The notes beneath the pieces are model-generated. The model worked only from the letters and a program-made list of their open reading frames with translations. It made no database searches and was not told the origin of the DNA. The position numbers and the translations under genes were made by a program. This document shows, in pieces, positions 45,395 through 63,480 of a DNA stretch of 64,000 bases (position 1 is the first letter of the stretch; each line of letters starts with the position of its first letter). This DNA is from Liolophura sinensis (Eukaryota > Mollusca > Polyplacophora > Chitonida > Chitonidae), in the NCBI RefSeq assembly GCF_032854445.1, contig NC_088305.1, forward strand, positions 2,049,001 through 2,113,000, in the 5' to 3' direction.

Positions 45395-48300
45395 CTGCAA
45401 TGACAACAAAATAAATGTGATGAGAATTAGCGCATGAGAAACAATACTGAGTTATGGCCCAAGGACCATGATACTGATAGGCATGATACAGTTATCTGGA
45501 TGTCTTTGGTAAGCTAACTCAGTGATATAGCCCATAGGCTATAATATCCTTTGTCACTAAGTTATTTTATTTATCTTTTATGGTTCTTAACTATATATTT
45601 TTTCTTATTTGGTTTTACAACAGATTATGTAGACTCTGCCAGTCACAATTTCAATTTTTTCCAGTTTTGAGTTTGGGTTTCAAAGTACTTATAACTTATG
45701 ACTTAAAGGGACACAGAATCGGCTCTGATTGGCTGAAAGTGGAGGTTTCCTGGGTTTAACCCTCCATCTTTGGTCACGCTTGAATAAATCTGCCATACCT
45801 AAAATGCAGCTCAGGCTAGGCATAGCCTGGACTTGACTATCTCTCACACCAGCTAATCAGAAACAAGTCTGTACACTTTGAAGTCTCAAATTGCTTGACA
45901 CATACAAATAATTCCAGAAAACCATACTGGGCAGAAAGTTCAAACCTCGGATCTTCTACACTAAACATATATTTGAAGCTTGATGCTCTAACTGCACAAC
46001 CACAGCACCTAAGTGGTCTTCATATTATATGTTTGTATCCTCACTTGCTTTGAGATTTGTATGAAGCCATGGTCAGGAATTTTTAAGGTTTTAATATGGG
46101 AAACCGTAAAAGAGAGCACAGCGATATGACTGGACCTTTTGTACTGACCTTTTGGCAATCTACTGGTGAACTCATACCATATCATGTGTCACAACTGCTT
46201 GGGGTACAGAAACACCGTGAACTGAATAATGCCATTATGTGAGGATCAAGGGGGAATAACTCACTATTTTCTTCACATGCTGCAGAGCTTGGTCTGTGCC
46301 TTTATCCAACATAACACAATGCTCCACACCATAGGGGTGGGAACTCTACCATATCATGTGTCATAAGTGCTTGGGGTACAGAAATACCGTGAACTGAATA
46401 ATGCCATTATGTGAGGATCAAGGGGGAATAACTCACTATTTTCTTCACATGCTGCAGAGCTTGGTCTGTGCCTTTATCCAACATAACACAATGCTCCACA
46501 CCATAGGGGTAGGAACTCTACCATATCATGTGTCATAAATGCTTGGGGTACAGAAATACTGTGAACTGAATAATGCCAGTATGTGAGGATCAAGGGGGAA
46601 TAACTCACTATTTTCTTCACATGCTGCAGAGCTTGGTCTGTGCCTTTATCCAACATAACACAATGCTCCACACCATAGGGGTGGGAAATTAAAACTTGGT
46701 CCATTACATTAATGTTTTTACCCATCCATCGTACATCCTGTATCCTGAGAAGACAGAACAAAGCGACAAATTAGGAATCATCACAGATTTCATTTTCTAC
46801 TAAAATTCTGCTGGTGGATCAACTGGATTTTTCATAGGATTATGATTATGTTATTAAATCCCAAACAGGAAAACATAGATGTACACAGGTATTTATTCAT
46901 TTATTTCATTGATGTTTTATGCCATACTCAAAAATATTTCACTTATACATGTACAATGGCGACCAGGACCATAGTGAGAGGAAACCCATGACCATCCGCA
47001 AGTTGCTGCAGACCTTCCCCCTTACAACCAGAGGGGAAACCAGCATGAGCTGGATTTGATGCAACCATTGGTGGGAAGTTCTTGGATCATTGCCCTGCAT
47101 TATCATGCTAACCTCATGGAGGCCGCCGATGTACTCCGGTAAATTACTATTGATTCTTATTATTATATTTAAAAGCCACAAAGAAAGTCACAAAAAGTAA
47201 ATCATGACATTTCCAAGCACGCACAATGTGGTATGAATCAACAATGAACACGATCAACTCAAATAAACTTGTGACACATCCTCAGCGATACTCGATAAAC
47301 CATCCGAGTCGCACGCCTGTCAGAAACTTGAACACGATCAACTCACACTTGTGACACGTCCTCAGCGATACTCGATAAACCATCCGAGTCGCACGCCTGT
47401 CAGAAACTTGAACACGATCAACTCAAACTTGTGACACGTCCTCAGCGATACTCGATAAACCATCCGAGTCGCACGCCTGTCAGAAACTTGAACACGATCA
47501 ACTCACACTTGTGACACGTCCTCAGCGATACTCGATAAACCATCCGAGTCGCACGCCTGTCAGAAACTTGAACACGATCACCTCACACTTGTGACACGTC
47601 CTCAGCGATACTCGATAAACCATCCGAGTCGCACGCCTGTCAGAAACTTGAACACGATCAACTCACACTTGTGACACATCCTCAGCGATACTCGATAAAC
47701 CATCCGAGTCGCACGCCTGTCAGAAACTTGAACACGATCAACTCACACTTGTGACACGTCCTCAGCGATACTCGATAAACCATCCGAGTCGCACGCCTGT
47801 CAGAAACTTGAACACGATCAACTCACACTTGTGACACGTCCTCAGCGATACTCGATAAACCATCCGAGTCGCACGCCTGTCAGAAACTTGAACACGATCA
47901 ACTCACACTTGTGACACGTCCTCAGCGATACTCGATAAACCATCCGAGTCGAACGCCTGTCAGAAACTTCTTCAGATATTGCACATCTTTCACCTTTCTG
48001 ACCTCTAAAGCAGTTTTGTCAGTGCAATACATATTGTTTCTCTACACCTTGTAGTTCTCTCGGAATGTTTCAAAATAATGGTTGCAGAGGCCCTTAAAAG
48101 GGATAAAGTATGAGGAATGTTTGCTGGAGGTGCCCTAGCTAGAGACATGTATTTATTTATTTCATTTTTTTTTTATTCTTCTGACAAACTTGATGTATTC
48201 TTTGAGCATGGTCATGGAGTTGTTCTATCAGCCTTTATGTAAAGCCTTTGTATCGCCCACTGAACTGGTGTAATTTACATAGGCGTGTATATGAAACTAT

Positions 48301-51300
48301 TGTGTCTATGCAAAATTGTACAGAAAGGAACCTGAAAAGTAGCTCCTGCTGTGTGTATCTTTAGTGTGATCCTTAGCTACAACAATTAGTCTGCTGAAGG
48401 AGTTAGGTTATCAATGAAACGTCATTTATAAATAACGCATGCTTTCCAGTAGGCCAGCCCTTAAACTTCTATTTTACCAATACTGAAGTTTACACTAAGA
48501 TACAGATGGGCTCAAAATCACCACCAGTTGATCACAAAGCCTTATTTTTTTTGGTGAGACACTGATGTTTGACCGGTTATGTAAACCAGCCCTGCCCAAC
48601 TTAATATTTTCAGCCATTTGCCATACATCTGACCAAAACGTAGTTCATTGCTTCCATATTCATGATCTGGAATGCAGGAACTTGCTACATACATGTTTTC
48701 TATTCAGAAAATGTGGACCTCGAAATGTAATTCCTATGTTATCTATGAGTTCCTGTCAATTTTGACTATGTTTTCCACTTAGGTTACGCAAAGATTCTTT
48801 ACACATCTGAATAATCGCATATGTAGACTGAATACTTACCACTGAAACGTGGCTCATTAGTGGCATTCTACAGTGATTTGTTTCATGTTTGATGACAAAT
48901 CATCCTTCTCTCATTCCATCACCCACTCAAGCTTCACCAAAAGTTCAGAGTCCTCTTCAGAGTTATTTCCCCTTGAGAGTTATAGTATTACTTACCAAAA
49001 CTGTTTTCACAACTGCTAGGTCGTACTCACGTTTTTGTGATGGCATTAAATACTTTCTGGGCCTCCTGTGATACATCCTGTCCTATATAGTCCACTTTCC
49101 TCTGCTTCTCCTCCACATTTCGATGTATTCTCTGCGCTATCTGACAATGAAATCATGCAAGGACAGCTTATGAGTCTTAAATTCCACTAAAGTACGTCAG
49201 ATTTCCTTTCCACAAACATTATCCATGTACACAAAGTATTCTCAGAAGTCGGAAACTAGCACCTATCAGCATGCCATGAGTAGGTTAAATGTCTTCTCCG
49301 CAAGTGATTTTAGGGGCTGCAGTTGCAGATGGGCATATGGGAAGTTTAGGTTGGTGCCCCCTGGGAGTAAGTCGTCCAAAAAAACCCCACAATAATAATA
49401 CTGATCTCTAACTCATAAAATCACTCAACTTTCAGAGGTTATTAATTTAGACATGAGTATAAAATAAATTGAAATGTTCAAGAATATGCAAAACACCACT
49501 TTCTCAATAAGCATACATCAAAAGGTATCATCTTGGCAAAATATCTGGACGAAGAAGAGCATTTCTGTTCAGATATGCACGAAAGTATAACTTTATATCT
49601 TTAAGTTATTTTATTTATTTATTTGATTGGTGTTTTACGCCGTACTCAAGAATATTTCACTTATACGAGGGCGGCCAGCATTATGGTGGGAGAAAACCGG
49701 GCAGAACCCAGGGGAAACCCACGACCATCCACAGGTTGCTGACAGACCTTCCCACTTACGGCCGGAGTATATCTTTAAGTCTACTAAAGCTTCTTAAATT
49801 GGGTGCCAGCTGAAACCCCTAATTAAAGCTATATTAGAAAAATAGTGGAACTATATTTAATATTATTATAAATCAGTAACTTAATAACAGAGCTATTGAC
49901 TGAGTAAAAGTAATGTTAATCCACACATTTTAAACATCAAGAATGTTGAGTTAATTCTCGCCACGATGTGGATGAGATATTGTCAATGTGGTGTTAAGCC
50001 CTAAGTTAATAAAATTAAACATCTTTTTTGAAATTGTTGCCTCATCTCAATTTGGGTTTTTTGCATATATACATGTACCTTTGTTTTGAACTTAATTTTG
50101 AACATTAAAAACTGTCCTCTCATGAGAAGACCATACCAGCGGAAGATAAGCGGTCTTGAATGATTGTTAGACAGCACAAACAGCCACACCAGAGTCACTG
50201 ATGGTTTGTTGTTACCAAGGCCCCACAAGCGCAGAGAATGTAAAATATTTACAAACTGTCCGTCCAAGGCTGGGTTTGATCTCATACCACTCATACCGCT
50301 TACTGTACTGCTTACATCCTGAACTTTGAGGCTGGTGGGAGGAGCTACATGTATCTACTGAACATTGAGGCTGGTGGAGGGGCTTATCTTCTGAACATTG
50401 AGGCTGATGGTAGGAGGGTTTACCTTCTGAACATTCAAGCTGGTGGGAGGGGCTTATCTTCTTAACACTGAGCCTGATGGTAGGAGGGTTTACCTTCTGA
50501 ACATTCAAACTGGTGGGAGGGGCTTATCTTCTTAACACTGAGCCTGATGGTAGGAGGGTTTACCTTCTGAACATTCAAGCTGGTGGGAGGGGCCTATCTT
50601 CTTAACACTGAGCCTGATGGTAGGAGGGTTTACCTTCTGAGCACTGAGGCTGGTGGGAGGAGCTTACCTTCTGAACACTGAGGCTGGTGGGAGGAGGAGA
50701 TTACCTTCTGAACACTGAGGCTGGTGGGAGGAGGGGCTTATCTTCTGAACACTGAGGCTGGTGGGAGGGGGAGATTACCTTCTGAACACTGAGGCTGGCG
50801 GGAGGAGGAGCTTACCTTCTGAATATTCAGGCTGATGAGAGGAGGGGCTTACCTTCTGAACATAGAGGCTGATGAGACGGGGGGTGCTTAACTTCTGAAC
50901 ATTCAGACTAGCAGAAGGAGGGGTTTAACTTCTGAACGTAGAGGCTGGTAGGAGGAGGGGTTACCTTCTGAACATTGGACTTGGGGGGAAGGGGGAGTTA
51001 CCATCTGAACACTGAGGCTGGTGTGAGGAGAGGCTTACCTCTACACATTGAAGCTTGTGGGGAGGGGAGGGGCTGAACATTGGGGTTGGTGGCAGGAGGA
51101 GTGCTTAGCTTTTGAACATTGAGGCTGGTGGGAGAGGGGTACCTTTTGAACATCGAGGCTGATGGGTGGAGGAGCTTACCTTTTGAACATTGAGGCTGGT
51201 GGGGAGGGGGCTGAACATTGGGATTGGTGGCAGGAGGGGTGCTTACCTTTTGAACATTGAGGCTGGTGGGAGAGGGGTACCTTTTGAACATTGAGGCTGA

Positions 51301-63044: not shown

Positions 63045-63480
63045 GTATGTTTGGCATTCACAAGCAACTACACGTATACTGCCAATACAAGAGTTCGAGT
63101 TGTACTGGTTGCTGCCTCACTTGAGGCTCAGCATTGAGACAGGTATGTGTGGCACGGGCAAGCAACTATCCTGTCAGTACAAGAGTTTTAGTGGTACTTG
63201 TTAGCACTCAGCATTGAGACAGGTATGTGTGGCACTGGCAAACAACTATCCTGCCAGTACAAGAGTTTCAGTGGTACTTGTTAGCACTCAGCATTGAGAC
63301 AGGTATGTGTGGCACTGGCAAACAACTATCCTGCCAGTACAAGAGTTTCCGTGGTACTTGTTGCTGCCTGGCTTAGCACTCAGCATTGAGACAGAGGTTT
63401 GTGTGGCACTGGCAAACAACTATACTGCCAGTACAAGAGTTTCGGTGGTATTTGTTGCTGCCTCGCTTAGCACTCAGCAT
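63033..63480 (+). repeat. 80-95-base repeat built from the exon 5 junction of the unknown gene
   Basis: AG|GTATGT followed by TTGGCATTCACAAGCAACTA in the real junction recurs as CAGGTATGTGTGGCACGGGC and similar at 63143, 63223 and 63303, with a degraded copy near 63390 (GTTTGT). Intron words TACAAGAGTTTC and CACTCAGCATTGAGAC recur with it. Confidence 0.85.

Follow-up and report, generated by a model that had tools for sequence, protein, structure and literature searches.

We analysed a 64,000-nucleotide stretch of the genome of the chiton Liolophura sinensis (hereafter the window; G000:C11:2049001-2113000 in the assembly searched, GCF_032854445.1, which holds 609,464,459 bases in 632 contigs), in which tandem arrays adjoin exons of two neighbouring genes. 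The paper describing this assembly names the species Liolophura japonica in the portion available (PMC11068029), and a published correction changes the name to L. sinensis (PMC12441733). The first gene, on the minus strand, is LSM12, with Pfam matches to LSM12_LSM (6e-26) and to the AD domain (4e-12 and 2e-8). The exons of the second gene, on the plus strand, were called by reading mutually consistent open frames, splice sites and intron phases from the sequence; it matched no Pfam family above the cut-off, a comparison with the PDB gave no convincing match, and no frame was recognised by eye in the 6 kb downstream of it. Arrays were detected with Tandem Repeats Finder (TRF) at a score threshold of 50. 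The exons and arrays at issue are the following, with a slash marking the exon-intron junction.

51750-51883, minus strand: LSM12 exon 2, whose last 34 bases plus the donor AAAAG/gtaagc correspond to the array unit.
50310-51783, minus strand: array that crosses the donor of LSM12 exon 2 into the following intron; TRF periods 37, 70 and 142 bp.
46609-46744, minus strand: LSM12 exon 4, whose final 79 bases lie inside the first repeat copy.
46168-46687, minus strand: LSM12 exon 4 array found by TRF, a 172-bp unit of exon end, donor and intron, 3.0 copies.
61122-61213, plus strand: exon of the second gene (exon 4 in the first-pass annotation), duplicated once, nearly whole.
61121-62777, plus strand: this exon with its array, a 103-bp duplicate and then a 69-bp unit with exon end and donor, 21 copies.
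62979-63044, plus strand: exon of the second gene (exon 5 in the first-pass annotation), its coding end outside the repeat unit.
63045-63485, plus strand: array with a unit of 80-94 bp, in which similarity to the unit starts at the donor and extends into the intron.

In three of these four cases, the repeat unit contains part of the exon, the splice signal and part of the intron. The end and donor of LSM12 exon 4 match a copy at 100% over 60 bases in the exon-edge alignment, and those of LSM12 exon 2 match at 94%; the 37-bp unit of the latter is present in approximately 40 copies (about 41 by TRF, 39.8 in the copy alignment). At exon 61122-61213, TRF reports 2.1 copies of 103 bp (61121-61333) followed by 21.4 copies of 69 bp (61303-62777); the exon end and donor are 95% identical to their copy, and the array consensus reads ACAG/gtaac at the donor where the authentic site reads ACAG/gtaag. 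The fourth case, for which TRF reports four copies of 80 bp at 63127-63456 and a further array at 63281-63485, is weaker: the bases preceding the donor of exon 62979-63044 are unlike the unit (927 of 1000 shuffles scored equally well), and only the donor and about 66 intron bases match it, at 74% and with a gap. The array at 63127-63485 holds the donor and intron start only, with no exon part. The first-pass annotation had described all four exons as trailed by arrays of their own end plus donor; this description stands for LSM12 exons 2 and 4 and exon 61122-61213, but fails for exon 62979-63044. Its view that the units are independent is borne out, as one unit from each array, searched against the window, matched its own array only (0 matches elsewhere at E 0.01, including in the three other arrays).

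Two further features of these arrays were apparent. Within the 69-bp array, both strands are open over 61346-62770 (474 codons) because the unit length is divisible by three. Within 50310-51783, the 37-bp units near the exon each contain a pyrimidine-rich run ending in CAG as well as a donor, such that a copy near LSM12 exon 2 could, in principle, be a potential micro-exon.

To place the window cases in a genomic context, we used exons located in the same assembly by Pfam models for kinases, kinesins, ABC proteins and myosins, at 77 loci picked without regard to repeats. For the kinesins and myosins, 147 of 213 matches, in 39 loci, were taken, and seven lacked a callable junction pair, leaving 140; for the kinases and ABC proteins, 37 of 138 and 1 of 19 matches, respectively, were taken, selected for short open frames, and one lacked a callable acceptor, leaving 37. 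Both junctions of these 177 exons were called from the open frame and the splice-site scores. A match to kinesin at L026, 8221-8321, previously counted as the sole engulfed exon, proved to be an array copy and was excluded, leaving 176 exons. The thresholds (overlap of 5 or 10 bases, TRF score of 50) and the strict set described below were chosen post hoc, and all P values are therefore exploratory.

We found that arrays cross 9 donors (L022, L026, L028, L031, L034, L036 twice, L052 and L059) and 6 acceptors (L012, L021, L027, L033, L044 and L045), or 15 of 352 exon edges. Eleven of the crossing arrays have copies of the exon edge and its splice site in the intron at 92-100% identity, both on the donor side (98% in the kinesin L026, 93% and 97% in the myosin L036, 93% in the kinase L052) and on the acceptor side (100% in the myosin L033, 98% in the kinase L045); the remainder are L021 (90%), L012 (82%), L028 (77%) and L059 (74%). 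The shortest strong periods of the crossing clusters range from 25 to 140 bp, and in 13 of the 15 the unit combines exonic sequence, the splice signal and intronic sequence, L012 and L028 being weak in this respect. Most crossing edges are not junction-calling errors, because in 13 of the 15 at least 5 bases of the domain match lie within the array (exactly 5 in L033 and L059), the exceptions being L027 and L031. A strict set, from which L012 (acceptor and copy both weak) and L021 and L028 (more than one copy within the called exon) are likewise left out, retains ten crossings: L022, L026, L034, both in L036, L052 and L059 on the donor side, and L033, L044 and L045 on the acceptor side. Together, these data show that the sampled arrays originate locally, from the edge of the exon on either side, and that no exon in the sample was swallowed. 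The pattern seen in the window is thus a recurrent one, as had been proposed, but not one peculiar to exon 3' ends: the numbers of donors and acceptors do not differ significantly (two-sided binomial P 0.6), and the acceptor arrays copy acceptor and exon start just as faithfully. Seeding at donors only was accordingly dropped once acceptor-side arrays appeared in the sample.

The acceptor-side array at L033:2246-3606 places approximately 42 near-identical acceptors with exon start in tandem ahead of a myosin exon, a striking case for the study of splice-site choice.

Could these junction arrays reflect chance? The copying of exon edges is real, because none of 352 reversed-target controls reached the score of the local matches. 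The meeting of arrays and edges is a different matter. This genome generates minisatellite arrays freely: tandem repeats make up 30% of the window, 13.9% of the first sample (kinesin and myosin loci) and 7.0% of the second (kinase and ABC loci), or 7-30% of the stretches examined, and they cover 77% of the sub-region 55950-63500. The argument that four unrelated minisatellites would hardly fall on exact junctions by chance therefore holds for the copying, but not for the placement, which is not improbable at array covers of 30% and 77%. Local-copy probes found copies at 6 of 176 donors and 4 of 176 acceptors versus 122 of 943 random intronic anchors, a control that favours random anchors since these may fall anywhere within an array. 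The predicted enrichment over control positions was absent by this measure; the selection-aware model described below, a fairer comparison, left an excess on both sides of the exon. When arrays were shifted circularly, crossings of any depth were about as frequent as expected (15 versus 12.3, P 0.24). In contrast, no array swallowed an exon where 13.2 were expected (rigid circular shift, 176 exons), and therefore selection keeps arrays out of exons.

From these results, we consider it likely that the arrays are minisatellites of the type termed 'mirages' in amphioxus, filtered by selection, and that they represent a tolerated accident rather than a device. A tandem duplication would start by chance across an exon-intron boundary and then grow as an ordinary minisatellite. 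Selection would eliminate arrays inside an exon or swallowing one. An array whose end copy reaches over the exon edge would be tolerated, because splicing can take place at the exon-proximal site, which would be the first donor or the last acceptor, so that the intron carries the extra copies away. We infer that this proximal site stays in use and that the arrays are near-neutral. Of the explanations offered at first, the one that saw such arrays as by-products of a local recombination habit is supported.

Several results weigh against this account. Because the circular shift counts placements that selection would remove, we added a selection-aware null, in which arrays are placed at random and exon-damaging positions are rejected. 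Under this model, 13 arrays straddled an edge versus 4.8 expected (P 0.0005), and the ten straddling arrays of the strict set also gave an excess (P 0.016); random birth and purging alone may therefore be an incomplete account. In addition, a first count of copied sites, for which a biased matcher overlooked many copies, put differences at 8.0% in the site versus 11.0% elsewhere; 81 of the 85 copies matched had an intact GT or AG.

The straddling excess raises the possibility that exon edges, on both sides, are favoured for the birth or persistence of minisatellites, for example because a terminal copy is fixed by selection. Consistent with this idea, array ends lie 5-40 bases inside exons at approximately 0.9 per kb (11 in 12.3 kb) versus 0.29 per kb overall. 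However, their density is already approximately 0.54 per kb in intron 20-120 bases from exons (19 in 35.2 kb), and requiring an overlap of 10 bases or more in the strict set left 7 arrays versus 4.2 expected (P 0.12). The exon starts of L012, L021 and L027 are, moreover, ambiguous, and junction scoring can choose sites within arrays. The two-sided excess, of two to three times, is possible but, in a small sample with thresholds chosen post hoc, not firm. We regard it as doubtful, though worth keeping in mind, that edges are hot spots of minisatellite birth or survival at some 2-3 times the expected rate, with about 3-4% of edges carrying tandem decoy splice sites. If so, they would serve as a natural experiment, on a large scale, in the choice of exon-proximal splice sites, and as standing raw material for intron gain.

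A second alternative is that seeding is specific to donors, with AGGT-bearing exon ends being duplicated, as in the route to intron gain described by Rogers, and then extended to arrays. All four window cases are donor-side, and the placement excess is firmer for donors (8 versus 2.4, P 0.0025) than for acceptors (5 versus 2.4, P 0.086). The equal fidelity of the acceptor arrays and the statistically even split between the two sides argue against it, as do genome-wide counts of splice-site words, in which a word was scored as tripled when three copies were spaced 20-50 bases apart and its reversal served as control. The donor word CAGGTAAGT was tripled at 301 of 9,807 single places (3.07%), and reversed CAGGTAAGT at 158 of 4,854 (3.25%); a second control word gave 126 tripled places (single places not counted). 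Distinct arrays, counted by eye among the listed places in contigs C1, C2 and C3 to 23.27 Mb, numbered 15 for the donor word and 6 and 7 for the controls, which fits the donor word being twice as numerous. Among the first 100 listed places per word, clusters of at least three accounted for 56 with the donor word and 44 with its reversal. The acceptor word TTTCAGGTT was tripled at 105 of 11,295 single places (0.93%), and its reversal at 88 of 6,930 (1.27%). Amplification of these two splice-site words does not exceed that predicted from their frequencies, the donor word being tripled in keeping with its abundance, and donor-specific seeding is, in our estimation, improbable.

Still less probable is that the arrays function as donor decoys or as docking sites for the U1 small nuclear ribonucleoprotein (U1 snRNP), as the first-pass annotation had offered. 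Many copies do carry full-strength donors: that of LSM12 exon 2, for example, scores 7.0 in both the exon and the array consensus. The intact GT and AG of the biased first count would also fit such a role, as would a slight sense bias in the 53 non-crossing arrays, whose best GT scores were higher on the sense than on the antisense strand (Wilcoxon P 0.03; P 0.06 where both strands have a GT). The medians in this comparison are those of weak sites, and the bias may stem from intron base composition. A fuller alignment, however, showed no clear extra conservation of the copied splice sites over the remainder of the unit: their divergence had a mean rank of 0.46 among unit positions, where 0.5 is neutral (15 arrays, 10 of them donor arrays). 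In 12 arrays, the copy donor was weaker than the authentic donor in 5, stronger in 2 and equal in 5. Arrays away from junctions rarely contain donor-like sites (score of at least 4 in 3 of 54 on the sense and 2 of 54 on the antisense strand, the 54 including the crossing array of L052), and the acceptor arrays would require another story. The decoy and docking functions were therefore dropped for want of a clear site constraint, the two weak leanings described here pointing the other way. Least probable of all is an assembly artefact: although tandem repeats are error-prone and the HiFi depth was 14x, assembly error is unlikely, as all 84 sampled arrays, the longest of 3,265 bases, are shorter than the mean read of 8,347 (depth and read length from the available part of PMC11068029), and units within an array differ from each other.

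Other features of the window lie apart from these junctions.

21610-31922, plus strand: AMPK gamma (PRKAG-like) gene, matched by a human probe sequence.
37938-43424: array with a 106-bp unit found by TRF, 5.5 kb and 52 copies, C-skewed, between the two gene regions.
46895-47085, 49605-49770 and 60830-60990: copies of a dispersed element (gttttacgccgtactcaagaatatttcac and similar).

A scan of 10 exons of the AMPK gamma gene, one with a low-scoring donor, revealed no junction-crossing array. An intron of this gene (28800-31170) contains similar stretches at about 28.8-29.8 and 30.2-31.2 kb, which look like a direct duplication, given their similar open frames. When 47000-47600 was used as a query, its first part matched 39 other listed places genome-wide at 74-91% identity; by its resemblance, the dispersed element is probably a short interspersed nuclear element.

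If the rate of 10-15 in 352 edges holds genome-wide, very many exons adjoin copied, often full-strength splice sites. As they stand, with nothing to be constructed, the arrays would then lend themselves to two questions: what leads the spliceosome to the exon-proximal site when dozens of equivalent sites lie nearby, and at what frequency repeats of this kind become new introns.

Related structures have been described elsewhere, and the comparisons that follow draw on the available portions of the papers cited. A literature search for chitons, molluscs or 'mirages' returned no boundary-spanning structures outside amphioxus, although most subscription journals lay beyond its coverage and absence is thus unproven; the available text of abalone and earthworm gene papers describes intronic minisatellites, with no boundary-spanning ones found. 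Human internal tandem repeats in segmental duplications include minisatellites with units of approximately 30 bp, some at exon-intron boundaries, that may form novel introns (PMC2812944). The chiton arrays resemble these in position, but the human repeats alter transcripts of recent paralogs, whereas no chiton exon in the sample was swallowed. As in the intron gain described by Rogers, AG/GT-bearing sequence is copied in tandem (PMC4974935); unlike in that case, the chiton copies lie inside introns, with no new intron shown, and the acceptor side is also affected. The closest likeness is to the amphioxus mirages, in which both exon boundaries are duplicated and reverse-transcription PCR suggests that regular splicing is undisturbed (PMC3087553, PMC3902484). 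In both systems, the unit comprises exon edge, splice signal and intron, either exon boundary is affected, and unit length varies from gene to gene (PMC3087553, PMC3902484). Mirage units measure 10-72 bp in Adh3 and 150-160 bp in globins (PMC3087553, PMC3902484), a range that includes the chiton units, except that of LSM12 exon 4, which is slightly longer at 172. The chiton arrays differ in occurring in a mollusc, in reaching up to approximately 46 copies versus 6 and 3 in the globins, and in that their frequency was measured on a repeat-blind sample (15 of 352 edges, 10 in the strict set). These findings suggest that boundary minisatellites are not peculiar to lancelets. We conclude that the chiton arrays, for which we found no evidence of a donor device, are real, recur in this genome and represent a molluscan instance of the known mirages.

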